From NCBI GenBank assembly GCA_023554335.1, contig JAMJQR010000152.1, forward strand, positions 1 through 32,849: a stretch of 32,849 nucleotides of DNA. Reading direction: 5' to 3'. A program made the translations under genes and the position numbers. This document shows, in pieces, positions 4,337-32,849 of this stretch; the stretch's first letter is position 1, and each line of letters starts with the position of its first letter. This DNA comes from Candidatus Benthicola marisminoris (GTDB lineage Bacteria; Gemmatimonadota; Gemmatimonadetes; Palauibacterales; Palauibacteraceae). The notes beneath the pieces were generated by a model. The model was not told where the DNA came from, ran no database searches, and saw nothing but the letters and a program-made list of their open reading frames with translations.

Positions 4337-5965
4337 CTAGTCCCCGGCAGATTCCCCAGCAACGCCGCATCCCGGCGAGCTCCCGTCCCCTCGAATCGGG
4401 GTTGCGCTGGCCTTCAGCGCCGCGTCGAGGAAGTCGTCTCCGTAGCGGGAGAGAAAAGCCCATATTGCGATTGCGCGTTCCTGGGGCACGCCACCGGGAT
4501 ACAGGTGGGTCGACGCCCGCTCGAGCTGGGCGATGGCGGCCCGCTCCCTGTCGCGCGTCATTCGGTCCATGGCCTTTCGCACGCTGGCCAGGGCAGCGAA
4601 CACCTGCGCTCGCCCTTTGCCGACCGCCGGCCGAAGTCCGGGAAGGTCCCGGGACACGATCCCGTCCATCTCCGACAAACCGCGATCGGCGTGCTCCTCC
4701 AGTCTCAGGAGGGCCTCCTCCACCGAGCGAGGGCGGCTGCGTTCGATGAGTCCCGCCGTCGCCTCTTCGAGACCTCCGCCCAGGATACCGGCCGACACGC
4801 CGGTCTTCTCCAGAAGCCTCGCCACCCGGCGCTCGACGATTCGCCAGGAGTCACGAGCCTCCACCACCGGCATCGGTACCCGGAGCCTCTCGAACAGCGG
4901 ACCCAGCTGCGCCCAGTATGCCATCTCCCCCGGACCGAGCACCGTCGCGGACACGGGTAGTAGCCACGACTCGAGCACGGGCCGTAGAGCCGCCGACGGG
5001 CTGAAATGGCCGCCCCCGGACAGCTCCAGGACCACCTCCTCGACCTGAAGGGAGGTTCCGTCCGGGGCAACCTGGATTGCACCCGATGTGCCGCGTAGCC
5101 GGTGTCTTCCCTGCCCTGCCTCGCGGAAAACCGGGATCGCGCCCTCCACGTATCCGAGTTGAGGCCGATACCCCAGGCCCCGGACGGCTTCGGTGCCTGC
5201 CCGAAGAGCCTCGTCCACCCCCTGACGATCTTCGAGAACCTCCTGGATCAGGGAGATGGAGGCGCGGCGCACTCCAGGATGGGTAGCATCCAGGAAGGCG
5301 ATCGGGAGGCCGCGCGTCATCTCGGAGAGAACGCCGATGAAGGCCTGACTGAAGGTCCGGTCCGGCTGATACTCCCTCTGGAGAAGCTCGGCCCACCGCG
5401 CGTCCGCCTCGCCGGCTGTCACGCCGCCAAGAAAATCCTGCACTGTCTGGCCGATTCCATCGCCCAGGGGCGATGGGCCCACGGAGCTTCCTGCCAGTTC
5501 CGGGGGCGGCTGCACGTCGATGCGGCCGTAGGACTCGTCCGTATCGAGGAATCCGACGGAGGCGACTTCGGCCCAGTCGTGGTCGTCGCCGGCGACCCAG
5601 AACACCGCGACACCTGGCTGGCCGGTCTGCGCCTCGATCCTACCGGCCAGGCGAGCGGCTGACAGCGCCTTGTAGAGGACATACAACGGACCACCGAAGA
5701 GCTGGGGCTGCTGGCCGGTGGTGACAACGTGCCCCCCTCCTTCGAGCACCCGGGCCAACCGTCTCGAGGTGTCGGAATCGGAGGTGACCAGATGGTCGGG
5801 CTCCAGGGGGGAAGGCCTGGGGGACGGGTAGGCCGCGCCGGGCAGCGCGGCGGTGAAGCTCCAGGGCGGGAAGAGAGCGCGGGCGGCGACGTCACCGTCA
5901 AGCAACTCGGCTATGAGCCCTCCCGGGCCGGCGAGCCGCTCCTTTTCGAAGGTCACGCTCTTCAT
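4337..5965 (-). CDS. bshC: Putative cysteine ligase BshC, bacillithiol biosynthesis
   Basis: 542 aa; VVTTGQQPQLFGGPLYVLYKALSAARLA, VFWVAGDDHDWAEVA, and YPGGVPQERAIAIWAFLSRYGDDFL, consistent with the BshC/YllA family. Confidence 0.92.
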   Translation of the reverse strand: MKSVTFEKERLAGPGGLIAELLDGDVAARALFPPWSFTAALPGAAYPSPRPSPLEPDHLVTSDSDTSRRLARVLEGGGHVVTTGQQPQLFGGPLYVLYKALSAARLAGRIEAQTGQPGVAVFWVAGDDHDWAEVASVGFLDTDESYGRIDVQPPPELAGSSVGPSPLGDGIGQTVQDFLGGVTAGEADARWAELLQREYQPDRTFSQAFIGVLSEMTRGLPIAFLDATHPGVRRASISLIQEVLEDRQGVDEALRAGTEAVRGLGYRPQLGYVEGAIPVFREAGQGRHRLRGTSGAIQVAPDGTSLQVEEVVLELSGGGHFSPSAALRPVLESWLLPVSATVLGPGEMAYWAQLGPLFERLRVPMPVVEARDSWRIVERRVARLLEKTGVSAGILGGGLEEATAGLIERSRPRSVEEALLRLEEHADRGLSEMDGIVSRDLPGLRPAVGKGRAQVFAALASVRKAMDRMTRDRERAAIAQLERASTHLYPGGVPQERAIAIWAFLSRYGDDFLDAALKASATPIRGDGSSPGCGVAGESAGD

Positions 5966-11757: not shown

Positions 11758-12730
11758 AGGCCGCTCCCGCGATTTCATTCTCGATTCGAAGGGCGATGTC
11801 CAGCGCGGCCCGGCCTTCGGCCGCCGAGACGCTGTCTCCGCCCGTCCCGCGGACAGCTCCAAGAAACGCCTCGAGCTCAAGGCGCAGCGGCTCCGCCTCG
11901 TCTCCTTTGATTGGAACGCGCTCCACGATATCCCCCAGGGACAGGTCCGCCAGATCGTGCGTTCGCGCCAGGCCGGCCAGCTCGATCCCCTCGCGCCGCC
12001 GCAGGAACTCCCCCTCGCCGCGAGCCAGGTCGAGGCTGAAGTACCCGGAGGGCTGAAAGAGCCGCAGCGCCCGCGTCCTCTCCGTCGATACGCGACTGGC
12101 GCTGATATCGGCGCACGCGCCGTTGGCGAACCGGATACGGGCGCTCGCCATGTCGACAGAATCCGTGAGCACGGGTATTCCCACGGCGTCCACGGATTCG
12201 ACCGCACTGTCCACCAGTCCGAGCACGAGATCGATGTCGTGAATCATGAGATCCAGCATCACCGGCACATCCGTGCCGCGCGGCTGAAACACAGCGAGTC
12301 GCTGCGAGGATATGTACCGGGGATCGTCCAGGAGCGGACGGACCTCGCGGATGGCCGAGTTGTAGCGTTCCACGTGACCGACAGCCAGGAAGCGGCCAAC
12401 CCGATCGGCAGTATCCACCAGGTCGTCGGCTTCGTCAAGCGTGGGGGTGAGGGGCTTTTCCACCAGAACATGGCAACCCGCCTCGAGCGCCATGCGTGCC
12501 ACGGGATGATGAGCCGACGTAGTGACAGCGACCACCACTGCGTCACATTCGTCGACCAGGGCGTCGGCTTCCAGCGCAGGTACCCCGCGTTCGGAGGCTA
12601 CAGCGAGCGCTCGCTCAGCATCGGTGTCCGACACGCCGACGAGGCGGCACCCAGGAATCTCGCCCAGGATGCGGGCATGGGCTGCGCCGAGGCGGCCCAC
12701 ACCGATCACCCCCACACGGGTCAGGCTCAC
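11726..12730 (-). CDS. Gfo/Idh/MocA-family NAD(P)-dependent oxidoreductase in lpx cluster
   Basis: GTG start at 12730 (GTGA overlap with lpxA stop): VSLTRVGVIGVGRLGAAHARIL, HVLVEKPLT, GHVERYNSAIREV, DLMIHDIDLVLG. Confidence 0.92.
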   Translation of the reverse strand: MSLTRVGVIGVGRLGAAHARILGEIPGCRLVGVSDTDAERALAVASERGVPALEADALVDECDAVVVAVTTSAHHPVARMALEAGCHVLVEKPLTPTLDEADDLVDTADRVGRFLAVGHVERYNSAIREVRPLLDDPRYISSQRLAVFQPRGTDVPVMLDLMIHDIDLVLGLVDSAVESVDAVGIPVLTDSVDMASARIRFANGACADISASRVSTERTRALRLFQPSGYFSLDLARGEGEFLRRREGIELAGLARTHDLADLSLGDIVERVPIKGDEAEPLRLELEAFLGAVRGTGGDSVSAAEGRAALDIALRIENEIAGAAYVAVQDSGGT

Positions 12731-13524
12731 GTCGTGATGCCGCGTTCGCTGGAGCGGATGAAGGCGATCATGTGCTGGACCTCGGGGGCGAGGCCCTCGC
12801 GCTTCTCCATCTCCTCGAGGGCCTGCGATACGTTGAGATCGGACTGGAACACCAGGCGGTATGCGTCCTTGATCTGCCGGATCGTGTCCCGCTTGAAACC
12901 CCTTCGTCGCAGCCCGACGATGTTCAGTCCATATGCGGCACACGGACTTCCGGCGACCATGACGTAGGGGGGCACGTCCTGCGGCAGCCGGGATCCTCCT
13001 CCCACAAAGGAGTGCGAGCCGATCCTCACGAACTGGTGAATCGCGGTCACGCCTCCCACGATCGCCCAATCCTCGATGACCACGTGCCCCCCCATGTTCA
13101 CCGAGTTGGCCAGAATGACGTGATTGCCCACGCGTGAGTCGTGCGACACGTGTGCGTACGCCATGATCAGGCAGTCGTCGCCGACCTGCGTCGTGCCGGC
13201 ATCGATCGTGCCCCGATTGAGCGTGGCATACTCGCGGATCGTGGTTCGGCTTCCGACCTCCAGCGTCGTCGCCTCGCCCGCATACTTGAGATCCTGAGGG
13301 TCGGTGCCGAGGACCGCTCCCTTGCAGATCCGGGACTCGTCTCCGACGGTCGTGTCGCGCTCGATGAGGACGTGCGAGTCCACCGTGACCCGCTCGCCAA
13401 GAACCACCCCCGCACCGAGGATGGAGTAAGGGCCGACCGTTGCGCTCTCGGGTACCACGGCTCCCGGATCGATGATCGCCGTCGGGTGAATCGTTCCGGT
13501 GGCCACCGCCTGGGACTTGCTCAT
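12727..13524 (-). CDS. lpxA: UDP-N-acetylglucosamine acyltransferase LpxA
   Basis: 265 aa; left-handed beta-helix hexapeptides, IHPTAIIDPGAVVPESATVGPYSILGAGVVLGE, AYAHVSHDSRVGNHVILANSVNMGGHVVIEDWAIVGGVTAIHQFVRIG, NIVGLRRRGF. Confidence 0.96.
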   Translation of the reverse strand: MSKSQAVATGTIHPTAIIDPGAVVPESATVGPYSILGAGVVLGERVTVDSHVLIERDTTVGDESRICKGAVLGTDPQDLKYAGEATTLEVGSRTTIREYATLNRGTIDAGTTQVGDDCLIMAYAHVSHDSRVGNHVILANSVNMGGHVVIEDWAIVGGVTAIHQFVRIGSHSFVGGGSRLPQDVPPYVMVAGSPCAAYGLNIVGLRRRGFKRDTIRQIKDAYRLVFQSDLNVSQALEEMEKREGLAPEVQHMIAFIRSSERGITT

Positions 13525-14828
13525 TTGTCCATAACTCTCGCCATCATCGTTGCCTCAGCCACCACGTCGCCAGCGACCCGTGTCACCCCCTGCATGCGGC
13601 ACGTGCGCCCGCGGAGCTGCAACATGCGCAACTCGAACAGGAGCTGGTCTCCGGGCCTCACGGGCCGACGAAACTTGACGTCATCCAGTGACATGAAGTA
13701 CACGACCTTGGATTGGGGGTCCTCGAATTCGTTCATCAGAAGCAGCCCGCCCGCCTGCGCCATCGCCTCGACGATTAGGACCCCGGGCATGATCGGGTGC
13801 TCCGGGAAATGGCCCTGAAAGAACGGTTCGTTGATCGTGACGTTCTTGAGTCCGAGGATCCGCTTGCCGCCTTCGAACTCGAGCACGCGGTCGATCAGGA
13901 GGAAGGGGAAGCGGTGCGGGATGTACTCCAGGATTCGATTGATGTCCAGCAGGGGGGTCCCGTCCGCGGGTCGACTGCGCATGCTGCGCAGGCGGCGCGC
14001 TACGGCCACATTCCCCCGGTGGCTCGGCTTCTCGGCGATCACGTGTGCCTGAATGGGTGCGCCGACGAGGGACAGATCGCCCACGAGATCCAGGATCTTG
14101 TGACGCACGAATTCGTCGGGGAACCGGAGCTCCGTTCCTGCGGCCAGACCGTCATCCGTGGCCACGATCGTGTTCTCGTACGTTGCGCCGAGCGCCAGGC
14201 CCCTGGCGTGCAGCATCTCTCTCCAACTCTCGAGGCCGAACGTCCTGGCCGGTGCGATCTCTCCGCAGAAAGTCTCGGGTTCTACCTCGACCGTAACGGA
14301 CTGGCGACCGATGGCCGGATGCTCGAAATCGATCAACGCCGTCACTCGGTACCCGTCGTGGGGAGCGATCGTGTACTCAGAGTCGCCCTCGCGGACGACG
14401 AACGGCTCGCTGACCGTCACGGGCTGGATCACGGAGCCCGCCTGGTCCTCGATTCCGGCTTCCAGGATCAAGTCGCACCACTCCCGGCCACTGCCGTCAA
14501 GAGCTGGAGGCTCCGGACCCTCCAGCTGGATCTCGACGTTGTCGATGCCGAACACCGTGAGAGGGGCCAGCAAGTGCTCGATGGTACCGACCGTTGCCTC
14601 GCCCTCGCCCAGTACCGTCTCCCATGACGTGCCGGCGACGCTGTCCACTGTCGCCGCGAGGAGAGGTTGGTCCTGGAGGTCGACCCGCCGGAAAACGACC
14701 CCGGTGCCGACGGGGGCCGGTCGGAGGGTGGCGCGAACGGCCTTGCCCGTATGCAGTCCCGTGCCGTCCAGCGTGATTCCTGAGCTCAGGGTGCGCTGCT
14801 GCCGCTCACCGTTCGGGCTCATCCCCAC
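13521..14828 (-). CDS. lpxC-fabZ: Bifunctional LpxC deacetylase - FabZ dehydratase fusion
   Basis: 435 aa; N-terminal LpxC (SSGITLDGTGLHTGKAV, TIEHLLAPLTVFGIDNVEIQLEGPEPPALDGSG, HKILDLVGDLSLVGAPIQAHVIAEKPSH) and C-terminal FabZ (ILEYIPHRFPFLLIDRVLEFE, NEPFFQGHFPEHPIMPGVLIVEAMAQ). ATG at 14822 is an alternative start. Confidence 0.95.
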   Translation of the reverse strand: MGMSPNGERQQRTLSSGITLDGTGLHTGKAVRATLRPAPVGTGVVFRRVDLQDQPLLAATVDSVAGTSWETVLGEGEATVGTIEHLLAPLTVFGIDNVEIQLEGPEPPALDGSGREWCDLILEAGIEDQAGSVIQPVTVSEPFVVREGDSEYTIAPHDGYRVTALIDFEHPAIGRQSVTVEVEPETFCGEIAPARTFGLESWREMLHARGLALGATYENTIVATDDGLAAGTELRFPDEFVRHKILDLVGDLSLVGAPIQAHVIAEKPSHRGNVAVARRLRSMRSRPADGTPLLDINRILEYIPHRFPFLLIDRVLEFEGGKRILGLKNVTINEPFFQGHFPEHPIMPGVLIVEAMAQAGGLLLMNEFEDPQSKVVYFMSLDDVKFRRPVRPGDQLLFELRMLQLRGRTCRMQGVTRVAGDVVAEATMMARVMDK

Positions 14829-15846
14829 TCCCTTCGAATCGGCGTTCCACCCGGGCCAGACGTTTCAAGATCTCGGGAATGCGGAACATCCCCGCACTCG
14901 CTCGCATCGCCTCCCGGTGAGGACGGGCCGGATACCCCGAGAATACCGCGCCGGAGGGAACGTCCCCGATGACGCCAGCCTGGGCAGCGATTCGAGCACC
15001 GGCGCCTACCTCCAGATGGCCGGCCACGCCCACCTGCCCTGCCAACTGCGCGCCCGCACCGATGCGGGTGCTTCCAGCGATTCCGACCTGCGCCACAATG
15101 ACGCAGTTGGGCCCTATGGTGACATTGTGAGCGATGTGGACCAGGTTGTCGATCTTGGTCCCCTGCCCCACCACCGTGTCGCCCAGAGCTCCCCGATCCA
15201 CCGTCGAGTTGGCACCGATCTCCACATCCGATTCGACGATGCAGCGGCCCACCTGCGGGATTCGCATCATCCCCTCAGCCCCGGGCGTATGGCCGAATCC
15301 ATCGACACCGAGGCGGGCCCCCGTGTACAGGCGCACTCGATCTCCGATCCTCGTGTCGTGGAGGATCGTGCAATTGGCTCCGATCCGACAGTCGGCCCCG
15401 ATGGTCACGTCGTCGTCGATATGGGTGTGCGGGCCCACCTCCGTTCCCGGGCCGATGCTCGTTTGATCGCCAATCGTTACATATGGTCCGATCGAGGCTC
15501 CGTCACCGATGGTTGTTCCCTGCCCGAGCCGCGCCGTCGGGTGCACCCCCGGAGGAGGACGTTTCTCCGGGTGAAACACCTCGAGCAGTTGACTGAACGC
15601 TAGCTCCGGGCTGGGGACCCTGATGAAGGACGTTCCGTTGGACTGCAGGTCGATCTGGGGGCCAACGAGGCAGGCGCCGACTTGGCGCCTGCCCAGCCGC
15701 TGTGCATAGCGCTCGTTCATCACGAACGTCAGGTCCGTTGGTCCCGCACGCTCCACGGAGGCGACGCCGGCCACGGGTTTCGACCCGTCGCCCACGACCT
15801 CGCCTCCGACCAGGTCGGCGAGCTGCTGCACCGTGAATGAACTCAT
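14806..15846 (-). CDS. lpxD: UDP-3-O-acylglucosamine N-acyltransferase LpxD
   Basis: Start at 15846 (MSSFTVQQLADLVGGEVVGDGSKPVAGVASVERAGPTDLTFV), long hexapeptide repeat, TGARLGVDGFGHTP, AHNVTIGPNCVIVAQVGIAGSTRIG. Confidence 0.95.
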   Translation of the reverse strand: MSSFTVQQLADLVGGEVVGDGSKPVAGVASVERAGPTDLTFVMNERYAQRLGRRQVGACLVGPQIDLQSNGTSFIRVPSPELAFSQLLEVFHPEKRPPPGVHPTARLGQGTTIGDGASIGPYVTIGDQTSIGPGTEVGPHTHIDDDVTIGADCRIGANCTILHDTRIGDRVRLYTGARLGVDGFGHTPGAEGMMRIPQVGRCIVESDVEIGANSTVDRGALGDTVVGQGTKIDNLVHIAHNVTIGPNCVIVAQVGIAGSTRIGAGAQLAGQVGVAGHLEVGAGARIAAQAGVIGDVPSGAVFSGYPARPHREAMRASAGMFRIPEILKRLARVERRFEGSGDEPER

Positions 15847-15901
15847 CTGACTCCCTGCGTGCCCGCACCGAGAGAGGTGCGCGAACAATATGGAAGGGGA
15901 G

Positions 15902-15940: not shown

Positions 15941-16513
15941 TTACTGCTGCGGCTCAGCTCCGGCCGCCGGTGCCGGGGGCGGAGCCGTGACGCCGAGCCG
16001 GGACAGTACCGTGTCCGTAATGTCCAGCGTGGTGTCCGCTGCCACCAGACCTTCCTTGGACGCATCGAGAACGATCGAGTACCCGTTCTGGGAACGGATC
16101 GCCTCTATGGCGTCACCGACCTGTTCCAGAATCGGCCCCAGGAGCTCCTGCTGCCGTTGCTGGGCCTGGCCGTCCATCTCGCCCTGCCGCTGCGTCAGCT
16201 GATTACGGAGGTTCAGAATCTCCTGCTGCTTGGTCTCCTTGGCCTGCGGGCTGAGGAGCACTTCCTGCCGCTGATAGTCCTGGAGCATCGAGTCCACGAC
16301 CGCCGCCTGCTGCTGCAGTTCGGCGCGCATATCGGCGAGCTCACGCTCGAACGTGCGCGCGGCTTCCGCCGCCCCGGGGGCCGCCTGCAGGATCACCTGG
16401 CCCCTCACGTAGACCACGGGCGCACCGGCTGGGGGCGTTCCCTGGGCCTGAGCTTCCTGCGCGACCAGGGCCAGCGCTACCGCGCTGAGGGCAAACCAAC
16501 GTGTCAGGGTCAT
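15941..16513 (-). CDS. OmpH/Skp-family periplasmic chaperone
   Basis: 190 aa; signal peptide (MTLTRWFALSAVALALVAQEAQAQ), coiled-coil with KETKQQEILNLRNQLTQRQGEMDGQAQQRQQELLGPILEQVGDAIEAIRSQNGYSIVLDAS. Lies directly downstream of bamA. Confidence 0.9.
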   Translation of the reverse strand: MTLTRWFALSAVALALVAQEAQAQGTPPAGAPVVYVRGQVILQAAPGAAEAARTFERELADMRAELQQQAAVVDSMLQDYQRQEVLLSPQAKETKQQEILNLRNQLTQRQGEMDGQAQQRQQELLGPILEQVGDAIEAIRSQNGYSIVLDASKEGLVAADTTLDITDTVLSRLGVTAPPPAPAAGAEPQQ

Positions 16514-16573: not shown

Positions 16574-18994
16574 TCAGAACAACTGGCCGAACCGGAAGTG
16601 AAGCTGCCACCCGGGATTCGGCCGTCCCAGCACGTCCCTGCGATCGAATCCGTACGCATAGTCCAGTCCTACCGGACCGAACGGCGTCACCAGGCTCAAC
16701 CCTACTCCTGCGCCGACCAGGAGATCCGTCGGGTTGAACTCGTCGGCCACGGACCAGAGGTTCCCCGCGTCGACGAAGGTGCTCGCGAAGATGTTGTCCG
16801 TCAGCTTCAGTCCGAAGGCCGCGGACGTCGCGAAGTAGGCCTCGCCCACGCGCGCCAGACTGTTGACCGGCGCGTTTCTCGGAACGTGTCCCTGTGGCGT
16901 GATCGTCGCTTCCTCGTAGCCACGGACGCGCTGGCCGACCTGGGTGCCGCCGACAAAGTACCTCTCGACGTAGAACGGGTTGTCTCCGAAGACGAGCCCA
17001 GCCTTGAAGTTCAGCATCGCCACGAGCTCGATGGGCACCTTTCCGGGCCCCCCACCGATTTGGGCGATCCGGGAGAACCACTCGCTGTCCAGGTCCCACT
17101 TGTTGTAGTCCCCGTCTCCACCCAGGAATCCGCCCGTCTTGCGGAAGGCGATCTGGTTGCGATTGCCTCCCGTCGGGAACAGTCCGCCCTCCCTCGTATC
17201 CCGGACGAGGCGCAGCGAGACCGTGCTGCGTGTACCGTTCGTGATCAGACCCTGTGAATCCGGACCGAGCCCGAAAGCGTCCAGGTCGCTGACGTCCTCC
17301 CGGAACAGGGAGTAGCCCACGAACAGGCGAATGGCTCGCACCCGGAACCGAAAGATCGGGATGCCGACCTCGAAGAAGCCACCGGTCTTGCGACGGGTCC
17401 CGAGGTCGAAGGTCTGAAATCGATCCCGTGAGCTCTGAACGCCCACGGTCGCACTGTACGTGGAACCGAAGAGCTCGGGGTCGGTGAAGCTGAGCTCGAT
17501 GTCCTGGGTCCGCGCCCCGAACAGCCAGCGGAAATGTCCGATCTTGGCCTGTCCGAAAAGGTTCGGCTGGTCGTAGCCTATGAATCCGGCCAGTCCGGTC
17601 ACGGCCGCTGCGGACATGCCGAAGTTCACGTTCCCCGTCTGCTTCTCCTGGACCCGATAGACGATGTCGATGTCGCCGTCGTCGCGCGGACTGATCTGGA
17701 TCGCCTCGTCCGGCGGCAGCGTCTCGAAGAAGCCCAGGGACTGAATGTTCCGAACGCTCTGGATCAGACGCTGCTGGGAATAGATGTCGCCCGGAAGCGT
17801 CAGAAGAATCTTGCGGATCACCCGATCGTGCGTGTAGTCGTTCCCGACGATCGACACCGTTCGTATGTAGGCCGGGTTCCTCTCGATGATCTGCAGGCTG
17901 ACCTCGACCGTAGGATTCTCACCCTCCCCTTCAGGGGGGTGACGGGCGACGTTCGGGATGACCTGAACCTGTAGATAGCCGGCATCGCGGTAGAGGTCGG
18001 CTATGTCGAGCGCTGCCTGCTGGAACGCAGTCTCGTCGAAGGGAGGAAAGTCTCCCGTCTCCAGCCGCTCAGGCGCGAGCTCGCCATCGCGTACCGGCGG
18101 GTAGTATTCGCCCAGCTGAGACGCCGGGAACCGCCGATTCCCGTCGATGACGAACGACCGAACGAGATACTGCGGTCCCTCCGCCACCCGGACCTGGATG
18201 CGCCCCTTGCCCGTCAGCGTGTCCACGACCACGGTATCGCCCAGCACCTCGAGGTCGATGTATCCGTGCTCGCCGTACAGCTGGGGAATGCGATCCGTGA
18301 GATCGGCTCGATATTCGTCCCGGTGCAGCTCGCCGGGCTCGTACCAGAAGAACCCCTCCTCGACGGTGCTCATGGCTCCGCGGACCTCTGAGTCCGTCAG
18401 CGCTTCGTTGCCAACGATCTCGACGCGCGCCAGGGCCAGGCGAGGGCCCTCCCTCACGCGAAACGTGAGCTCCAGCTGGTCGAGACCATTCGGGTCCGGC
18501 GCGAGAGCCGTGTCCACGGTCGCCTGGGGGAATCCCTCCTGCCCCAACATCTTGAGGATCATCGCCTTGGCTCGGACCACCTTGGCCGGATCGAGCGCGC
18601 CACCGCCGATCAGTCCGACGGTATCGGAGATGGTTCCTTCGCTCGCGTGTTCCAGGCCTACGAAGCGATAGCTCCCCACGACCGGTCGTTCGACGACATC
18701 GATGTAGAAGATGGCAGGTGCGAAGGGGGTGACGCGGATCTGGACGTCGGAAAACTCCCCGGTAGCGAAGAGCCTCTGAATGGCCTCCTGAACGGCCGGT
18801 CCGTTGACCACTTCTCCGACACGAATCTGGGCCAGTCTCTGGATGCCTTCCGCGGAATAACGCGAGTGACCGCGGACGACGATGCTGTCCACGGTGACGG
18901 AGAGCGGCTCCTCCTGCCCCAACAACGGAGTGACCCCCGCCGTCGATAGTGCGGCGAGGGTCATGAGCCCGGCTGCGATTCGGCTAAATTTCAC
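16574..18994 (-). CDS. bamA: Outer membrane protein assembly factor BamA
   Basis: 806 aa; signal peptide, POTRA repeats, Omp85 barrel with [33 protein letters not shown] and terminal [14 protein letters not shown] start overlaps the clpC stop (GTGA). Confidence 0.96.
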
Positions 18995-21462
18995 GTGGCG
19001 GATGTATGCGAAGCCGCCCGGAAGACCAGAGATTCGGAGTCCTTCGCCACCTCCACGACGATCTCGTCTCCCGGCGCGAACTCGGCCATCAAAATTTTCT
19101 CAGAAAGCGCGTCCTCGATGTACCTCTGAATCGTCCTCTTGAGGGGGCGCGCACCAAACTTGGTATCATATCCGCGGTCGACCAGAAAATCTATGGCCGC
19201 TTCCGACAGATTCAGCGTCAGTTCTTCGTCTGAGAGACGCTTCTGGACCTCCCGCAGCATGATGTGGACGATCTCGCCGATCTGTTCCTTGCTGAGCGGG
19301 TGGAATACGATCACCTCGTCCAGGCGATTCAGGAACTCCGGCGTAAACGTCCGGTCGACTTCGTCTCTGACCTTCTGCGACATCCGGTCGTACTGCACCT
19401 CGGTCTGTCCCGTCTCGAAGCCGAGGCTCGACGTGGAGGCGATCTCCCGGGCTCCAACGTTCGACGTCATGATCAGGACCGTATTCTTGAAGTCGATCAC
19501 GCGGCCGTAGTTGTCGGTAAGCCGGCCCTCGTCGAGCACCTGAAGCAGGATGTTGAAGACGTCCGGGTGCGCCTTCTCGATCTCATCCAGCAGCACCACC
19601 GAGTAGGGGCGTCGGCGGACCGCCTTCGTGAGCGCCCCGCTGTCCTCGTAGCCGACATAGCCCGGCGGAGCGCCGATCAGGCGGCTGACCGAGAACTTCT
19701 CCATATACTCCGACATGTCCACCCGGATCAGGGCTTGCTCGTCAGCAAACAGGAACCGCGCCAGCTGCCTCGCCAGCTCGGTCTTGCCCACCCCGGTGGG
19801 TCCGCAGAAGACGAACGAACCGATGGGGCGGTCGGGGTCCTTGAGTCCGGCTCGCGTTCTCCGGATGGCGCGGCTGATCGCGACGATCGCCTCGTGCTGC
19901 CCCACCACGCTTTCGTGCAGCTCATCCTCCATGCGCAGAAGGCGTTGCGTTTCCTCCTCGCGCAGTCGGCTCACCGGAATGCCCGTCCAGCGGGAAACGA
20001 TGAACGCGATCTCCTCCTCGGAGACGACCGGGCGCTTCTCCCGCTGCTCCTTACTCCATTCTTCCTTGGTGCGCCGTATCTCGCTCAGGAGCTCCTTCTC
20101 GCGGTCTCTCAGCATCGCGGCCCGCTCGAAGTCCTGGTCGCGGATTGCCTCGTCCTTGCGACCCGAAAGCTCCTCCATCTCCGTCTGGAGCTTCTGCACC
20201 TCGGGAGGCGGCACCTGCGCGCCGAGCCTCGACCTCGCTCCGGCTTCGTCGATGACGTCGATCGCCTTGTCCGGCAGGAAACGATCCGTGATGTACCGGT
20301 CGGCCAGCTTGGCCGCAGCCTGCAGCGACTCATCAGGAACCGACACGTTGTGGTGGTCTTCGTAGTGCTTCCGGAGTCCCTTGAGGATCTCCAGGGTCTC
20401 CTCCACGGAAGGCGCTTCCACGATGACCGTCTGGAACCTTCTCTCGAGGGCCCCGTCCTTTTCGATATGCTTGCGATACTCGTTCAACGTGGAGGCGCCA
20501 ACGCACTGGAGCTCGCCGCGCGCCAGGGCCGGCTTCAGCATGTTTGAAGCGTCGATCGCCCCCTCCGCGGCCCCGGCACCAACGAGCGTGTGCAGCTCAT
20601 CGATGAAGAGGATGACCCCCTCGTTCTGAGAGATCTCATTAACGATAGCCTTGAGCCGCTCCTCGAACTGGCCGCGGTACTTGGTTCCTGCGATCACGGC
20701 CGCCATATCCAGGGCCAGGACCCGGTGGTCCTTCAAGCTGTCCGGGATGTCTCCTCGATCGATCTTCTGAGCCAGTCCCTCGACGATGGCCGTCTTGCCT
20801 ACGCCGGGCTCACCGATGAGTACGGGGTTGTTCTTCTTGCGCCGAGAAAGGACCTCCATGACGCGTTCGATCTCGGAGTGCCGTCCGATGGTCGGATCCA
20901 GCGCACCGTCGTGCGCGAGCTCGGTGAGGTCCCGGCAGAAGTGATCAAGGGCGGGCGTCTTCGACTTCGACTCGCCCCGGGCCGGCGGCGGAGCCGGAGA
21001 ACTCCCCGGCTCGGCGATCGGTCCCTCGCTGCCCAGGAGCTTCAGCATCTCGGCCCGAGCTTCCTCGAGACCGATGCCCAGCTCACCCAGAACCTTAGCG
21101 GCCAGCCCCTTTTCTTCACGTAGCAGACCGAGGAGGAGGTGCTCCGTACCCACGTAGCTATGGTTGAGCTCCCGCGCCTCAGCCATGGCGTACTCCAGCA
21201 CCTTCTTGGCGCGGGTCGTATACGGCAGCTCGCCGATCGAAGCCGAGGCCTTCCCGGGCCTCACGTTCTCCTCGACCAGGCGAAGCAGCTCGTCCAGGTC
21301 CGCGGCCAGGCTACGGAGGACCTCTGCCGCAACGCCCTCTCCCTCCCGGATCAGACCGAGAAGGATGTGCTCCGTCCCCACGTAGTCGTGTTGCAGGCGC
21401 ACGGCTTCCTCGCGCGCCATGGCCAGTACCTTCCTTACACGGTCGGTGAAGTTGTAGTTCAT
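18991..21462 (-). CDS. clpC: ClpC-type AAA+ unfoldase
   Basis: Two Clp_N repeats ([22 protein letters not shown]), two Walker A ([18 protein letters not shown]), UVR/M-domain linker, LGF ClpP-contact-type tripeptide. ATG at 21462 overlaps the mcsB stop (TGATG); the ORF track start at 21465 is a TTG. Confidence 0.96.
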
Positions 21463-22595
21463 CAACCCCCCGAGGGCGGACCGTCATCCGCCTTCGCATC
21501 ATTGAATCCGTCGGCAGGCTCGCTTCCTGCGTCCTGCTCGTCTGTGGCAAGCTTATCCCTAACGAACGCTGCGCGACAGACATCCGCCTCTTGCTCGCTC
21601 AGACTGCCGCCCGCTTCACGCTCGAGATGTGCTGACTGCCCGCGCACCAGGATTTCGTTTAGCGTCTCTACCCGAGGCGATTTCAATAGTTTCAGGGAAA
21701 CGCCCAGGCGGACACCAGAGAGGAGGTTCATCATCTCCTCCAGGGCCAGGCTGCGGGCCGTTCGCAGGATCCCGTAGGCCCTCCATACCTTATCCTCGAG
21801 GACCGCGGGGGCTTCCGACAACAGCCGGGCTCGCGCGCTTCGCTCGTAGTCGATCACCTTGCCCGCGACGCGTCCGAGGTGGTCGATGAGGTCTTCCTCG
21901 CCCTTGCCGAGAGTGGTCTGGTTAGAGACCTGGAAGAAGTTGCCTACGACTTCAGAGCCTTCTCCGTACAGCCCGCGATAATTGAGCCCTACCTGCGATA
22001 TTCCCTCCAAAACCTTCGTGATCTCCTTGGTGAGAACGAGCCCGGGAATGTGGATCAACACGGACGCTCGCAGCCCGGTCCCGACGTTGGTCGGACAGGC
22101 CGTCAGGAAACCGAACTGATGATGGTACGCGAGCGGAAGCAGCGATCCCACTTCCTCATCGAGCTGGTCCACCTGACGCCAGGCCGAGTAGAGCTCGAGG
22201 CCTCCCACCAGCGCCTGCAGGCGAAGGTGGTCCTCCTCGTTTACCATGATGCCGCAGGAGTCGGACTCCGACATCACGAAGGCGGATTGGGAGCCCCCTG
22301 CTGAATTGACCAGGTCGCGGCTGATCTGGTGGCGTTCCACCAGCAGGTCCCGGTCCACCGAATCCAGATCGGCGACGTCCCAGAAATGGCCGTCCGCGAG
22401 CTTGGTGGATCGGCTTGCCGCCGCGCGGACGCGCTCCAGCACATCGGCCCTTTCCTCGTCGCTCGATCGGCCCGGGAAACAGAACCCCTGGAGGTTGCGG
22501 GCGACACGCACCCTCGACGAGAGCACGATCTCCGCCTCCTCGCCGCCCCGTATCCAGTCCAGGCCGCGCTCCCCGACCGGGCCCGCCCTCATCAT
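21462..22595 (-). CDS. mcsB: Protein arginine kinase McsB
   Basis: [86 protein letters not shown]. Start at 22595 overlaps the mcsA stop (ATGA). Confidence 0.95.
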
Positions 22596-23101
22596 TCCTG
22601 TGTCTCCAGCTCGTGGATTCGGTCGCGCAGGTCGGCGGCCGACTCGAAGTCCTCCGTTTCGATGGCGCGCTTCAGGCGGCGACGCATGGCCGATATCTGT
22701 CCCAGTCGATCGCTGATGTCCGACGCATCGCTCAGGTAGAGCTTGCCCGCGTGCTGAGAGGAGCCGTGGATGCGCCGCAGGAGGCCGCGCAGCTGGCTCT
22801 CGAAATGCACGTAGCACTGCGAGCACCCGAGGCGGCCCGTCTTGCGAAAGTCGGACGTCGTCGTGCCGCAGAAGGGGCACGGCTCGCTGGGTGCTGGCGC
22901 GGGCGCTGGCTGTCCGGCGGACCCCAGCTGGGCGAGGAAGTCGACCAGGGGTGGGACCTGCTCAGCACCGGACGGCGATTCTGCCGAGAGTCCACGCGCG
23001 GCGGCGCAGCTCACGCAGAGATGAGCCGAAGTCATCTCCTCTGACTCGATGGAAGTCAGATGGATTTCAGCCTGTTTCTCGTTGCAGTCGTCGCAGAGCA
23101 T
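22592..23101 (-). CDS. mcsA: McsA, UVR- and zinc-finger protein activator of McsB
   Basis: 169 aa; four CxxC motifs (CDDC, CVSC, CPFC, CSQC) and a C-terminal UVR motif (RRRLKRAIETEDFESAADLRDRIHELE). Confidence 0.93.
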   Translation of the reverse strand: MLCDDCNEKQAEIHLTSIESEEMTSAHLCVSCAAARGLSAESPSGAEQVPPLVDFLAQLGSAGQPAPAPAPSEPCPFCGTTTSDFRKTGRLGCSQCYVHFESQLRGLLRRIHGSSQHAGKLYLSDASDISDRLGQISAMRRRLKRAIETEDFESAADLRDRIHELETQE

Positions 23102-23107
23102 CGTCCC

Positions 23108-23851
23108 TCACACCTGTGCCGGCCCGGTCGCACCGCCTGTGTCGGCCAGCTCGAGAACGCCCGCCGAGAGCCGCAAGATCCGATCCGTCCGGCCTGCCAG
23201 GGCCTGATTGTGTGTCACGACGACCATCGCCGTCCCATGATCCCTCACCAGGTCGAAAAGCACGTCATGCAGGATTTCGCTGGTCTCCAGGTCGAGGTTG
23301 CCGGAAGGTTCGTCGGCCAGGAGCACCGGGGGCTCGTTTGCCAGGGCCCTGGCCGCCGCTACCCGCTGCTGCTCCCCGCCGGAGAGCTTCGCGGGGACAT
23401 GCCCGGAACGGTCGCCAAGCCCCACCTGGTCCAACAGCTCGAGAGCCCGCCTGCGAGCTGCAGCTCTGCTTTCTCCGGCTATGAGCTGCGGCATCATCAC
23501 GTTTTCCAGCGCGGTGAAATCCCGCAGTAGGTGATGGAACTGGAATACGAATCCGACATAGCGATTGCGCACGGCTGCCAGCTCGAGGTCATCGAGGTTG
23601 GCGAGGTCTCTGCCCCCGAGAGCGATCCGGCCCGCGGTGGGCAGATCGAGTCCTCCCAGCATGTGGAGCAGCGTCGACTTGCCCGAGCCGCTCGGGCCCA
23701 CGATCGAGATGGTCTGGCCGCGAGCCAGCGCAAGGTCCACTCCGCGCAGCACTCGAATCACGCTGCCGTCCGCTCCGTCGAAATTCCGCTCGACGGCCGA
23801 AGCCTCTACGGCTAGCACGTCACCCGGATCCGGCCGCATGGGCTCATTCAT
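23108..23851 (-). CDS. lolD: LolD-like ABC transporter ATPase
   Basis: [78 protein letters not shown]. Confidence 0.92.
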
Positions 23852-25127
23852 GCCGGATCGCCTCCACCGGCGTGTAGTCGGCCGCTCTTCGCGCGGGATA
23901 GATGGTGGCGAGGAACGAAATGGCCAGGGAAGCCAGCACGATGAGTCCTACGTCCACCACGTTGGTGTCCACGGGCAGGTGATCGATGAAATAGACGTCG
24001 CCCGGAAGCGTGATGAACTGATAGCGGTCCAACAGCCAGGAGAGCGCAAGCCCGAGCCCTGTCCCCACCGTCGTACCGACCATCCCGATGACGACTCCCT
24101 GCAGGACGAATACCCGCGTGATGTCAGCCGCCGTCAGGCCCATCGCCCGCATGATCCCAATCTCCCTCACCTTGTCCGTGACTACCATGATCAGCGTGGA
24201 CACGATGTTGAAGGAGGCCACGAGGACGATTAGAAGCAGGATGATCCCCATGGCGAACTTCTCGAGCTTCAGGGCCGAGAACAGACTGGCGTTCTGGCGC
24301 TGCCAGTCGTCCACCGAGTATGGAAAGCCGAGAGAATCCCGGATCCTCGACGCCACCTCTCCGCTCTTCCAGGGATCGCGAACGTTGAATTCCACGCCGG
24401 TGACCGCTCTCCCCATGCGGAGCAGGGTCTGAGCCGATTCCAGGTCTACGTAGGCGAACTTGGTGTCGTACTGATACAGCCCGGTCTCGAACAGGCCCGT
24501 GACCTCGTACAGGCGCAGCTGAGGCTGGATTCCGGTCGGCGTGAGATCGGCTCCCTGGAACGAGACCACCGTCACCGTCTTGCCAGGGTACAGGTTCAGC
24601 CGATTGGCCAACGTCTTGCCGAGGAGGATCCCAGGCCGGCCGGATTCGGTCTCGCCGAAAGGCAGCTCGCCCGAGATGATGTGATCGTCAACCTCGGTTA
24701 CGGACAACGAGGCCGAGTCACCGGCCAGGCCCCGCAGCACGGCACCCTCTGAGTAGCTGCCGCCCGCGACGTTCAGGCCCACCTCGGTGTAAATGAATGG
24801 GGCGGCACCGACCACGTCCGGATCCTCGAGGACCCTCGTGAGGACCGACTCCCAGCTTTCCATGCGCACGGCTTCGCCTATCTCCAGCACCATCCCGTGC
24901 GAATTGGCGCCGAGGATCTTCTCCCGCAGATCCGTCTGCAGCCCGGACATGACACCGATCACCACGATCAGCGCCATCACCCCGACGGAGACTCCTCCGA
25001 TGGCGATGAGTGTGATGAGAGACAGAAAACCGCGTCCACGGCGGCTCGAGAGGTATCTGCTCGCAATAAACCAGTGCAGGGACCGGTCGGTTCGACGGCT
25101 TCTTCGCCGGCCCTCAGGCAAACTCAT
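23844..25127 (-). CDS. LolC/LolE-type lipoprotein-releasing ABC permease
   Basis: 427 aa; FIASRYLSSRRGRGFLSLITLIAIGGVSVGVMALIVVIGVMSGLQTDLREKILGANSH; C-terminal FtsX-like TM region ending [11 protein letters not shown]. Confidence 0.92.
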   Translation of the reverse strand: MSLPEGRRRSRRTDRSLHWFIASRYLSSRRGRGFLSLITLIAIGGVSVGVMALIVVIGVMSGLQTDLREKILGANSHGMVLEIGEAVRMESWESVLTRVLEDPDVVGAAPFIYTEVGLNVAGGSYSEGAVLRGLAGDSASLSVTEVDDHIISGELPFGETESGRPGILLGKTLANRLNLYPGKTVTVVSFQGADLTPTGIQPQLRLYEVTGLFETGLYQYDTKFAYVDLESAQTLLRMGRAVTGVEFNVRDPWKSGEVASRIRDSLGFPYSVDDWQRQNASLFSALKLEKFAMGIILLLIVLVASFNIVSTLIMVVTDKVREIGIMRAMGLTAADITRVFVLQGVVIGMVGTTVGTGLGLALSWLLDRYQFITLPGDVYFIDHLPVDTNVVDVGLIVLASLAISFLATIYPARRAADYTPVEAIRHE

Positions 25128-26688
25128 CGTCCCTCAGGATAGGATACAGGATCACCTCGCGGATCGTGGACCGGTCTGTCAGAAGCATCACCAGCCGGTC
25201 GATTCCGAGTCCCAGCCCGCCGGTCGGTGGCAAGCCGTACTCGAGTGCGCGCACGTAGTCTTCGTCCAGTCCCTGCGCCTCTTCGTCCCCGGCTGCACGC
25301 GCGGATGTCTGCTCTGAGAACCGTTCCCACTGGTCGATCGGATCGTTGAGCTCGCTGAACGCGTTCACCAGCTCCGTGCCGGCCACGATGACCTCGAAGC
25401 GCTCGGCCAGCTCCTCATCGCCGCGCTTCGGCTTGGCGAGGGGGCTCATCTCGATCGGGTAGTCGAAGACGATCGTGGGATTCATGAGCTCGGGCTCCAC
25501 CCACTCCGAAAAGATCACGTCCAGGAGCTTGGTCCTTCCGAGGTCCGCCGCATCCGATCGCCCGGCCGCGAGGACCTTGCTCCGGAGCTCCTCCGTATCT
25601 GCGGAGCGGGCGTCGAACCCGGCGAAGTTCTCGATCGCATCGAAGAAGGCGATGCGCCTCCAGGGGCGTGATAGATCGACCGTGTGGCCGGCGTAAGGGA
25701 TCTCGAGTCCGCCCGTCACCGCGGTGGCTGCCTCGGTGACCAGCTCCTCGGCCGTGTCCATCATGGTTCGGTAATCGGCGAAGGCCCGGTAAAGCTCGAG
25801 CATGGTGAACTCGGGATTGTGCGTGCGGTCGATTCCCTCGTTTCGGAAGTTCTTCGAGATCTCGTACACTCGATCGAGCTGCCCTACGATCAGTCGCTTG
25901 AGATACAGTTCATCGGCGATTCTCAGGTAGAGCGTCCGATCCAGGGTGTGATGGTGCGTCGTGAACGGTCGTGCAAAGGCGCCGCCATAAAGCGGTTGCA
26001 GGATCGGAGTCTCGACTTCCAGGTAACCTTCGGCGTCGAGCTTTCTGCGAAGCGTCGAGACGATACGGGCGCGGGTGACGAAGACCTCCCGCACGTCCGG
26101 GTTTACCGCGAGGTCCGCGTATCTCTGCCTGTAGCGGCTCTCGACGTCCGCGAAGCCGCTGTGTACGATCGTGTCACCCTCTGGGGTGATCTCCGTCTTC
26201 CCCAGTGGCAGCGGCCGCATGGACTTGGCCAGCAGCGTCAGCCCCTCTACCCGGACCGTGACCTCTCCCGTGCGGGTGCGGAACATCTCGCCCTCAACGC
26301 CGATCCAGTCGCCCAGGTCGAGGAGCTTCCGCAGCTCTCTGGCGGTGTCGTCCAGGTCATTGTTCCTGAAGTAGACCTGGAGGCGGCCCGACCGGTCGCC
26401 CAGGTGCGCAAAGGCGCTCTTGCCCATGTCACGCAGTGATTCCAGGCGGCCGGCGACGCGAACGCGAGGACCGGCTTCGTCATCTCGGGCTTCTGCGTCG
26501 TACAGCGCGAGCGCCGAGGCGAGGTCGTGCGAAGGGTCGAAGGCGTAGGCATACGGCGCGACTCCGAGCTCTAGCAGCTTCTCCAGCTTCAGGAAACGAT
26601 CGCGCACCGGCTTCGGCCGTTCTTCTGCCGTGTACCATTCGCGGATCGGCAGGCCGTCACGCAGACCGGGTGTCTCCCTGGTGGTCAA
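25114..26688 (-). CDS. lysS: Lysyl-tRNA synthetase, class II
   Basis: OB fold then RYRQRYADLAVNPDVREVFVTRARIVSTLRRKLDAEGYLEVETPILQPLYGGAFARPFTTHHHTLDRTLYLRIADELYLKRLIVG, FRNEGIDRTHNPEFTMLELY, GLGLGIDRLVMLLTD. Confidence 0.97.
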   Translation of the reverse strand: MTTRETPGLRDGLPIREWYTAEERPKPVRDRFLKLEKLLELGVAPYAYAFDPSHDLASALALYDAEARDDEAGPRVRVAGRLESLRDMGKSAFAHLGDRSGRLQVYFRNNDLDDTARELRKLLDLGDWIGVEGEMFRTRTGEVTVRVEGLTLLAKSMRPLPLGKTEITPEGDTIVHSGFADVESRYRQRYADLAVNPDVREVFVTRARIVSTLRRKLDAEGYLEVETPILQPLYGGAFARPFTTHHHTLDRTLYLRIADELYLKRLIVGQLDRVYEISKNFRNEGIDRTHNPEFTMLELYRAFADYRTMMDTAEELVTEAATAVTGGLEIPYAGHTVDLSRPWRRIAFFDAIENFAGFDARSADTEELRSKVLAAGRSDAADLGRTKLLDVIFSEWVEPELMNPTIVFDYPIEMSPLAKPKRGDEELAERFEVIVAGTELVNAFSELNDPIDQWERFSEQTSARAAGDEEAQGLDEDYVRALEYGLPPTGGLGLGIDRLVMLLTDRSTIREVILYPILRDDEFA

Positions 26689-26690
26689 GG

Positions 26691-27798
26691 TCAGGCCGTT
26701 CCTTTCCGACGGAGGAAAGCTTCGATGAAGCCATGAATATCGCCGTCCAGCACCCCATCCGCATTCCCTACTTCGACGCTGGTCCGATGGTCCTTCACCA
26801 TGGTATAGGGCTGAAGCACGTAGGAGCGGATCTGGTTCCCCCAGGCGATGTCCGTCTTGGAGTCCTCGAGGGCCTGTCGCTCCGCTTCTTTTTCCTCCTC
26901 GGCCTTCTGGTACAGGGCAGCCTGCAGCATCTTCATCGCTTTCGCCCGGTTCTTGTGCTGGCTGCGTTCCTGCTGACAGGAGACCACGATGCCCGTAGGC
27001 ACGTGCGTGATACGAACCGCAGAATCCGTCTTGTTGACGTGCTGACCGCCGGCGCCGGAAGCCCTGTACGTATCGATCCTGAGGTCCGACTCGTCGATCT
27101 CAATCTCCACATCCTCGTCGACCTCTGGATAGACGAATACGGAGGCAAACGAGGTGTGGCGCCTGCCCTGGGCGTCGAAGGGTGATATCCGTACGAGCCG
27201 GTGGACTCCCGTCTCGGCGCCGAGGTAGCCGAAAGCGTGGTCGCCCAGGATCTCGAGGGTGGCAGACTTGACTCCCGCCTCCTCGCCCGGCTGGTACTCC
27301 ACGAGGTTGACGGTGTAGCCGCGCCGCTCCGCATACCGGGAATACATGCGCAGGAGCATCTCGGCCCAGTCCTGGGACTCCGTTCCCCCCGCCCCTGGGT
27401 GTACGGTGAGTAGCGCCGATCGGTGCGCATCCGGGCCGCGCAGCATGTTCCGAAGCTCGAGCTCAGCGAGGCCATCGGCGACCGCAGCGGTTTCGCTATC
27501 CAGTTCCGACGCGAGGTCAGCGTCCTCCGCGTCCGCCAGGAGATCCGCAAGTTCCTCGAGCTCAGCGAGCCGGCTCGCGAGGCCAGCCCACGGCTCCGTC
27601 CAAGACTTCAGTTGGTTGGAGCTGTCGATGACCTCTCGGGCAGACTCGGGCTGATCCCAGAAGCCCGGGCTCGCCATGCGTTGCTCGAGTTCAGCGAGCT
27701 GAGATTCCTTCGACTCGAGGTCAAAGAAACCTCCGGAGGTCGGCCAGCCTGTCGGCCAGCGCCTTGATCGACTCGAGCTTCGCGTCAGATACGGCCAT
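26691..27798 (-). CDS. prfB: Peptide chain release factor 2 with programmed +1 frameshift
   Basis: Zero frame from ATG 27798: MAVSDAKLESIKALADRLADLRRFL then UGA (27723-27721); site is CGG AGG TTT CTT TGA C. The +1 frame from GAC at 27722 reads DLESKESQLAELEQRMASPGFWDQPES... and continues through GGQHVNKTDSAVRITHVPTGIVVSCQQERSQHKNR to 26691. Confidence 0.95.
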
Positions 27799-27841
27799 TC
27801 TCGCGCTCCTGTACGGCCCGGGGTGTCGGGCGAATCGCAGC

Positions 27842-27896: not shown

Positions 27897-27921
27897 AGTC
27901 TAGTGGCCCCTTTACCTCCGG

Positions 27922-30033
27922 TCAAGCGGTGCCCTCGACCAGCTCCAGATCAATGGTTCGGCTCTCCGTGTCGACCCGTATGACCTGTACGGTCACCCGG
28001 TCGCCCAGCCGGTACCGCTTTCGCGTCCGCCGTCCCTGCACGGCGTGGCCATCAGCATCATAGGAATAGTAGTCATCCACCAGGGAGCTGAGCCGGACGA
28101 GGCCCTCGGTCAGGACGTCGTCGAGCTGGACGAACAGTCCGAAGCTCGTCACACCACCGATCGTGCCGCCGAACTCGTCTCCTACGTGCCGCTGCATGTA
28201 CCGGATCTTCTTCGCCTCCACTGACTCGCGCTCGGCCTCCTGTGCTCTCCTCTCGGTGTCGGAAGAATGTCGGGCGACTTCCTGCAGGCCCTCGTCGGTG
28301 AGCGGAGCCGAGCCCCTCAGCCACCTCACAATCGCACGGTGCACCGCCAGGTCGGGGTAGCGCCGTATTGGAGAGGTGAAATGCACGTAGGCATCCGATG
28401 CGAGTCCAAAGTGCCCCACGTTCTCGGTGGAGTACCGGGCCCTCTTCATGGACCGGAGCGTAACGGTGGAGATGAGGTACTCGTGCGGCTGGTCGGCGGC
28501 TTCCGCGAGGAGTCGCGACAGGTCGGATGGACGTACCGGCCCCGCGGGCAGCCCGTGGCCGAAGAAGGAAGCCAGCTGGCGCAGACTGTCGATCCGATCC
28601 GGGTCGGGCTCTTCGTGAATGCGAAACACGAGAGGCAGCCCCCTCTCGATGCCCAGCTCGGCTACGGCCTCGTTGGCCCTGATCATCAGGTCCTCGATGA
28701 TGCGATGTGTCTCCAGCCTCTGCCGTGGGCGGATCTCGAGTGGCTCTCCCGACTCGTCCAGCACCACCTCTGCCTCGGGGATCGCGAAATCCACCGATCC
28801 TCCCTCAGCCCGCGCCTTGCGGATCGCCCGGGCGGTGTCCTGAATGTCGCGAAGGCCGTCGATCAGGTCGGGGTCCGCCGTATCGGTTGGGTCTTCGCCC
28901 GACAGGACCGCCTGTGCCTGCTCGTAGGACAGCTTGTGCGCGCTTCGGATGACGCCGCGCACGAGCCGCGTGGATGTCTCGTTGCCCTGCGCGTCGTAAG
29001 TAAGAACCACGGAGAGCGTGAGCCGATCCTCACCGGGTACCAACGAACATAGATCGCTGGAGAGAGCCTCGGGGAGCATGGGAATCACCCGATCCACCAG
29101 GTACACGCTAGTCCCCCGCTCGAGAGCTTCCCGATCGATCGCACTTCCCTCTTTAACGTACCAGGAGACGTCGGCGATGTGGATCCCGATCTCCAGGCTG
29201 CCGTTCGTGCGCCGCACGGAAAGAGCATCATCATGATCGCGGGCTGAAGCCGGGTCGATGGTGAAGCACAACACCTCGCGGAAGTCCTCGCGGTCAGTCA
29301 GGTCTTCGGGACGGATGCCGCGCCGTCCGATCTTCTCAGCCTCCTTCTCGACGCCCGGAGGGAAATCGACGGGCAGCTGTTGACCCAGGATGATCGACAG
29401 CACGTCCACCCCTGGGTCGCCCGGTCGCCCCAGAACCAACTCGATCGTCCCAACTGGACGAAGGCCCTCGGTGCCCCACTCGCCGATTCGGACGAGGACG
29501 ATATCTCCATCTTCTGCTTCCGCCCGATCCGAGGCCGGGACGAATATGTCGGCCGGCAGAGGCGGCTCCTGCGGAACTACGACTCCGTAGCCGCGGCGGT
29601 TCCGATACACACCCACGGCCTGAGCCCAGGCTCGTTCGAGGACCCGGACCAGCCGGCCTTCCGGGTTGCGACCGGGGGATCGGCGCTCGACGCGCACTGC
29701 GACCCGGTCGCCCTCCACAGCCGATCCCAGGTACCTGCGAGGTACGAACACGTCCTCACCGCCGGCCTGATCCGGGACGATGAAAGCGTCGCCGGAGCGG
29801 GTTACGTCGGCCACGCCTGTCACGATCTCGAAGCTTCCTGGTAGTCCGTACCGGCCTTTGCTTTGCCGGATGACCTGGCCGTCTCGTTCCATCGCACGTA
29901 GACGACGGCGGAAGCCCCGGTAAGCATGGGTATCAACCCTCAGCCGGCGAGCGATATCGCGAGCCTTCATCGGCCCTCGACCGGATTCCGCCAAGACTTT
30001 CGCGATATCTTGACGACTGGGAACGTCGTCCAT
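27922..30033 (-). CDS. rnr: Ribonuclease R
   Basis: 703 aa; cold-shock/OB region (GDAFIVPDQAGGEDVFVPRRYL), RNB domain (CFTIDPASARDHDDALSVRR, IGIHIADVSWYVKEGSAIDREALERGTSVYLVDRVIPMLPEALSSDLCSLVPGEDRL), C-terminal S1. Confidence 0.96.
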   Translation of the reverse strand: MDDVPSRQDIAKVLAESGRGPMKARDIARRLRVDTHAYRGFRRRLRAMERDGQVIRQSKGRYGLPGSFEIVTGVADVTRSGDAFIVPDQAGGEDVFVPRRYLGSAVEGDRVAVRVERRSPGRNPEGRLVRVLERAWAQAVGVYRNRRGYGVVVPQEPPLPADIFVPASDRAEAEDGDIVLVRIGEWGTEGLRPVGTIELVLGRPGDPGVDVLSIILGQQLPVDFPPGVEKEAEKIGRRGIRPEDLTDREDFREVLCFTIDPASARDHDDALSVRRTNGSLEIGIHIADVSWYVKEGSAIDREALERGTSVYLVDRVIPMLPEALSSDLCSLVPGEDRLTLSVVLTYDAQGNETSTRLVRGVIRSAHKLSYEQAQAVLSGEDPTDTADPDLIDGLRDIQDTARAIRKARAEGGSVDFAIPEAEVVLDESGEPLEIRPRQRLETHRIIEDLMIRANEAVAELGIERGLPLVFRIHEEPDPDRIDSLRQLASFFGHGLPAGPVRPSDLSRLLAEAADQPHEYLISTVTLRSMKRARYSTENVGHFGLASDAYVHFTSPIRRYPDLAVHRAIVRWLRGSAPLTDEGLQEVARHSSDTERRAQEAERESVEAKKIRYMQRHVGDEFGGTIGGVTSFGLFVQLDDVLTEGLVRLSSLVDDYYSYDADGHAVQGRRTRKRYRLGDRVTVQVIRVDTESRTIDLELVEGTA

Positions 30034-32756: not shown

Positions 32757-32849
32757 GGGCCGGCGGTGACCTACTCTCCCACGGCCTGAGGCTGCAGTAC
32801 CATCGGCGCTGAGGGGCTTAACTGCTGGGTTCGGGATGGGACCAGGTGT
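32757..32849 (-). rRNA. rrf: 5S ribosomal RNA (5' end truncated by window)
   Basis: Reverse complement ACACCTGGTCCCATCCCGAACCCAGCAGTTAAGCCCCTCAGCGCCGATGGTACTGCAGCCTCAGGCCGTGGGAGAGTAGGTCACCGCCGGCCC matches conserved 5S blocks (CCCATCCCGAACCC, GTTAAGC, GATGGTACTGC, GGGAGAGTAGGTC). Confidence 0.95.

Follow-up and report, generated by a model that had tools for sequence, protein, structure and literature searches.

We found that Candidatus Benthicola marisminoris carries a complete McsA-McsB-ClpC cassette, without CtsR, inside a run of translation and envelope genes. The cassette lies on contig JAMJQR010000152.1, in a stretch of 32,849 nt that is referred to here as the window; the window's class is Gemmatimonadetes. 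Most descriptions of phosphoarginine (pArg) tagging concern a stress system of Gram-positive bacteria that is linked to CtsR. Since components for both tagging and degradation were found, CtsR is missing and a promoter-like site precedes prfB, we read the cassette as probably a CtsR-free McsA-McsB-ClpCP quality-control module that shares a transcript with translation and envelope genes, was inherited in this position, and has no caging switch in the window's class. A preliminary description had proposed a pArg module within an envelope operon, acting on envelope proteins. The complete module without CtsR was indeed found there, but the sequence gave no support for the proposed action on envelope proteins.

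The run lies on the minus strand in the order prfB-lysS-lolC-lolD-mcsA-mcsB-clpC-bamA-ompH-lpxD-lpxC/fabZ, with overlaps at most junctions. The genes listed in the preliminary description, their overlaps, the 6-nt gap and the downstream OmpH and Lpx genes were all present on this strand when the junctions were read directly. Furthermore, prfB and lysS, which that description lacked, form the upstream part of the same run. The main frame of prfB, encoding RF2 (26691..27677), is joined to an in-frame start about 120 nt upstream through a CTTTGAC programmed frameshift site. The site lies on the minus strand within window positions 27700-27800, and one precedes prfB in 69 of the 82 loci examined. 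The lysyl-tRNA synthetase gene lysS (25114..26688, PF00152) overlaps by 14 nt the gene for a lolC/E-type lipoprotein-releasing permease (23844..25127), which in turn overlaps lolD, encoding the ATPase (23108..23851), by 8 nt. After the 6-nt gap between lolD and mcsA (22592..23101), the stop and start codons are interlocked at mcsA/mcsB (ATGA), mcsB/clpC (TGATG) and clpC/bamA (GTGA). Thus, clpC (18991..21462) starts with an ATG overlapping the mcsB stop, and bamA (16574..18994) with a GTG overlapping the clpC stop. For mcsB (21462..22595), a longer reading frame starting at 22880 was set aside and the ATG at 22595 adopted. The periplasmic chaperone gene ompH/skp (15941..16513), lpxD (14806..15860 for the homologous part of the ORF, TIGR01853), an lpxC-fabZ fusion (13521..14828, NF009667) and lpxA (12727..13524) follow. 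Beyond lpxA, the same strand carries lpxB, lpxK, a SPOUT methyltransferase gene and bshC (bacillithiol biosynthesis, 4337-5965), with murJ and uvrC farther along. A 5S rRNA (RF00001) was observed at 32758-32849, cut by the end of the window.

McsB, a protein-arginine kinase, matched NF002194 with a score of 386.7 against a cut-off of 385, and solved bacterial protein-arginine kinases align with it from end to end (best chains 8wtb and 6tv6). BamA contains five PF07244 POTRA domains and a PF01103 Omp85 barrel, and its TIGR03303 score of 349.5 bits exceeds the NCBIfam equivalog cut-off of 297. McsA, LolD (TIGR02211) and LolC/E (TIGR02212, just below its threshold) are best matches that fall under the curated cut-offs; the identity of all three also draws on gene order, and that of McsA on its conserved cysteines, which form two zinc-finger pairs (8 Cys) ahead of a C-terminal UVR motif.

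To determine how widely this arrangement occurs, we surveyed the neighbourhood across the phylum. McsB matches were obtained in 244 of the 249 Gemmatimonadota genomes sampled, and in 223 of the 226 good-quality ones; stops inside some matches were read as alignments overrunning the true C-terminus. The order lysS-lolC-lolD-mcsA-mcsB-clpC-bamA-ompH-lpxC was recovered in nearly all of the 81 fetched regions, covering 10 families and two classes; it is interrupted at contig ends and in a small number of loci that are rearranged or broken. Of 98 loci of the window's class, 97 have bamA immediately after clpC in the same orientation, as do all five of the phylum's other class. Across the phylum, the median distance is -1 nt at both lolD-mcsA and mcsA-mcsB, 28 nt at mcsB-clpC and 52 nt at clpC-bamA. 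Because the order recurs between genomes whose McsB proteins share only about 45-50% identity, the arrangement is not due to chance. The mcsA-mcsB-clpC-bamA adjacency, for which the preliminary description had called for such a survey, thus extends far past this genome and is not unique to it.

Apparent losses of the order were likely assembly effects where clpC contains a run of N and is joined to ribosomal protein genes (G199), where clpC is truncated and bamA was not found in the genome (G125), and where breaks lie near contig ends (G164, G180); on reading, the two one-contig exceptions resembled assembly breaks. One locus (G075) lacks the upstream part of the run, and in another (G069) lolC and lolD are swapped. 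Two genomes labelled Gammaproteobacteria (L124 and L150) carry the Gemmatimonadota operon, and the McsB of L150 groups with Gemmatimonadota in the tree; these labels may be wrong. A scan of viral contigs for McsB gave no match.

Outside the phylum, McsB was found in 37 of 60 Latescibacterota, 57 of 58 Omnitrophota and 54 of 59 Planctomycetota genomes. A single scan of species genomes yielded 80 named loci; the Latescibacterota label was taken from the phylum of one Candidatus Latescibacterota genome (L125) and extended to genomes grouped with it. In this group, bamA comes directly after clpC in 15 of 20 scorable loci. In two others (L202 and L214), bamA lies at most 6 kb from clpC, with a TamB-domain protein in between (L202:4051-7980, 1309 aa; L214:2465-6637, 1390 aa). 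No bamA was seen downstream of clpC in the fetched stretch of three loci, and one further locus ends at a contig edge. Most fetched Omnitrophota loci read lysS-lolC-lolD-ilvE-mcsA-mcsB-clpC, a variable ORF, mlaE-mlaF-mlaD, then radA and/or yacL-ispD-ispF. The ORF between clpC and mlaE changes fast and spans 363-595 aa (L222, L223, L226, L235, L187). Of the five scanned, three gave weak AsmA/TamB- or YhdP-like matches and two gave none, so that label is tentative. In two Omnitrophota genomes that were checked, bamA and a nearby lpxC are on a different contig from mcsAB-clpC. In one Omnitrophota locus (L228), bamA and lpxC lie 4-8 kb upstream of mcsA, in place of lolCD.

In the McsB tree, the sequences separate by phylum, and Gemmatimonadota and Latescibacterota are united with a support of 99, a topology consistent with vertical inheritance. 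The picture is one of an old mcsAB-clpC neighbourhood that includes lolCD in these diderms, and in which bamA is joined to clpC in Gemmatimonadota and Latescibacterota.

Comparison with known systems sets the window apart. Geobacter-like bacteria have a lysS-lolC-lolD-bamA-ompH-lpxD operon; the window has these envelope genes in an identical order, with mcsA-mcsB-clpC lying between lolD and bamA. The Bacillus ctsR-mcsA-mcsB-clpC operon shares the order of the three cassette genes, the catalytic residues, the McsA zinc fingers and the ClpC pArg-site glutamates, whereas in the window CtsR is missing, lolCD precedes and bamA, not radA, follows clpC, and the McsB of the window's class differs in its receptor. 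The listed Bacillus locus continues with radA, disA, yacL, ispD and ispF; lysS lies upstream of the module in B. subtilis too, beyond the point where the fetched locus stops. Omnitrophota resemble the window in that lolCD precedes mcsAB-clpC and that most loci continue with a lipid-transport system, but differ in the ilvE between lolD and mcsA, in having no bamA directly after clpC and in keeping the pArg receptor. Chlamydia trachomatis, likewise a Gram-negative, has orthologs of McsAB, and its ClpCP degrades pArg-casein; its mcsAB is flanked by tRNA genes and stands apart from clpC (PMC10128030), whereas here all three genes form one tight run in an envelope operon. Among the papers available to the search, none relevant was retrieved that links McsB to bamA, to Gemmatimonas or to outer-membrane gene neighbourhoods.

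We also examined the regulatory signals. CtsR adjoins mcsA in 51 of 51 Bacillota loci and was found in none of the fetched Gemmatimonadota, Latescibacterota or Omnitrophota loci. The Pfam CtsR search missed the B. subtilis control genome and is by itself not evidence of absence, and it was therefore replaced by a profile search, which detected CtsR in 4 of 4 Bacillota controls and in 0 of 22 genomes (20 Gemmatimonadota including this one, one Latescibacterota and one Omnitrophota). This bears out the earlier remark that CtsR is absent. Neither a CtsR operator (at up to 3 mismatches) nor a CIRCE element was found in the window. A promoter-like TTGACC-N17-TAGACT site upstream of prfB (27897..27925, minus strand) is a candidate operon promoter, and a similar site occurs at a similar distance in several relatives (families f1 and f2); the promoter scan returned 2 sites against 1.7 expected by chance, so this evidence is weak. 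As for a separate promoter and terminator that would isolate mcsA-clpC, a condition raised in the preliminary description, the scan found no promoter-like or convincing terminator site between the module and its neighbours. Long operons often contain internal promoters that are invisible to a consensus scan.

Residues (in B. subtilis numbering) were compared for McsB, McsA and ClpC. McsB R29, R34, R125, R176, R207, E121 and C167 are invariant in the window and in 101 of 101 loci of its class, R31 and D122 are also 100% conserved in the Gemmatimonadota set, and no group compared shows variation in the active-site residues; the effects of R-to-K changes in the active-site arginines are described in PMC7235348. 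McsA has 8 of 8 cysteines of its four CxxC zinc motifs in the window and 99-100 of 100 in the class, and R96 is kept. ClpC retains the pArg-site glutamates E32 and E106, whose roles have been reported (PMC12583610), the M-domain F436 and the ClpP loop (LGF, VGF or MGF; LGF in the window). At residue 5 of the ClpC N-domain, 98 of 99 loci of the window's class have Asn, where Bacillota have Arg and Latescibacterota have Met. The genome encodes one ClpP, within tig-clpP-clpX. YwlE-type (GNTCRS) LMW phosphatases occur in several Gemmatimonadota families; this genome has two LMWPc matches.

The receptor of McsB gave a different result. In B. subtilis, pArg194 docks on R337, D338, S285 and R341 of the neighbouring subunit, which closes an octameric cage; the heat survival of R194K cells is as poor as that of the deletion strain (PMC8370763). 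The window McsB has A337, D338, L285 and K194, and neither the receptor signature (RDxxRA with S285) nor the R194 phosphosite was found in it. R337 is kept in 96% of Bacillota, in all Omnitrophota and Latescibacterota and in the other Gemmatimonadota class, which also keeps D338, but the window's class retains R337 in 14% of loci and S285 in 0%. Retention of R194 falls from 98% in Bacillota through 71% in Latescibacterota and 27% in Omnitrophota to 10% in the window's class. Judged from these alignments, the pArg receptor (R337/D338/S285) and the R194 site are mostly lost in the window's class. Receptor and R194 are a regulatory mode of Bacillus and not the core of the family.

Taken together, these data suggest how the CtsR-free quality-control module may work. 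A housekeeping-type promoter upstream of prfB would drive prfB, lysS, lolCD, the cassette, bamA, ompH and the lpx genes. McsA would activate McsB, which would phosphorylate arginines of unfolded or aberrant cytosolic proteins; the N-terminal domain of ClpC would bind the phosphoarginines and pass the proteins to the cell's ClpP. The site between lolD and bamA would go back to the ancestor shared by Gemmatimonadota and Latescibacterota, and the dose of the cassette would consequently track translation and envelope synthesis and not heat shock. The McsB of the window's class would have dropped the phosphoarginine-driven caging switch, and probably McsA alone activates it.

The lost receptor pocket also allows a reading in which McsB is no general protein-arginine kinase and serves as a ClpC adaptor, or acts on few or other guanidino substrates. 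The retention figures for R337, S285 and R194 in the window's class speak for it. Moreover, R337K abolishes the kinase activity of B. subtilis McsB, and R337A/D338A de-oligomerises the protein (PMC7235348, PMC8370763). The R337K result also weighs against the quality-control module, since an McsB that has lost R337 might have weak or altered activity. However, the window's class has kept the active-site residues and R341 of the pocket, along with the zinc fingers of McsA and the pArg-site glutamates of ClpC, which a loss of tagging can hardly explain, and we regard the adaptor reading as quite improbable.

The place of the module next to lolCD and bamA could instead reflect its task, if McsAB-ClpCP mainly cleared the cytosol of lipoprotein and outer-membrane protein precursors, or adjusted envelope enzymes. 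lolCD lies upstream in three phyla, and downstream most loci have either bamA, directly or after a TamB-like gene, or mlaEFD. However, prfB, lysS, ilvE, radA, yacL and ispDF are neighbours as well, monoderm Bacillota keep the module with radA in spite of having no outer membrane, and the sequence gives no evidence on substrates, nor for the earlier idea of an action on envelope biogenesis proteins. Because the Omnitrophota order (lysS-lolCD-ilvE-mcsAB-clpC, mlaEFD, radA/yacL-ispD-ispF) is close to that of Bacillus, an inherited superoperon would be another reading of the linkage. The module may have a dedicated envelope role, but a mainly envelope-directed task is unlikely. More speculatively, pArg-ClpCP of Gemmatimonadota and Latescibacterota might be a dedicated cytosolic checkpoint that tags precursors of lipoproteins, barrels or envelope enzymes missing export, with the Gemmatimonadota McsB rewired (receptor lost, McsA-only) for constitutive rather than heat-shock use; we would not expect this to be so. 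Specific turnover of LpxC by pArg-ClpCP, which the preliminary description had likened to that by FtsH, is very improbable. lpxC-fabZ does belong to the same run, but FtsH in E. coli uses a free C-terminal degron of LpxC, and the FabZ fused to the C-terminus here leaves none. The separate contigs of bamA/lpxC and mcsAB-clpC in two Omnitrophota genomes point the same way, with L228 to the contrary.

Our preferred reading remains the CtsR-free quality-control module. McsB is near-universal in Gemmatimonadota, Omnitrophota and Planctomycetota, and in Gemmatimonadota and Latescibacterota it sits inside an outer-membrane assembly operon. A class with cultured members, in which McsB has an intact active site and has mostly lost its receptor, is a natural test of whether McsB needs caging to function.
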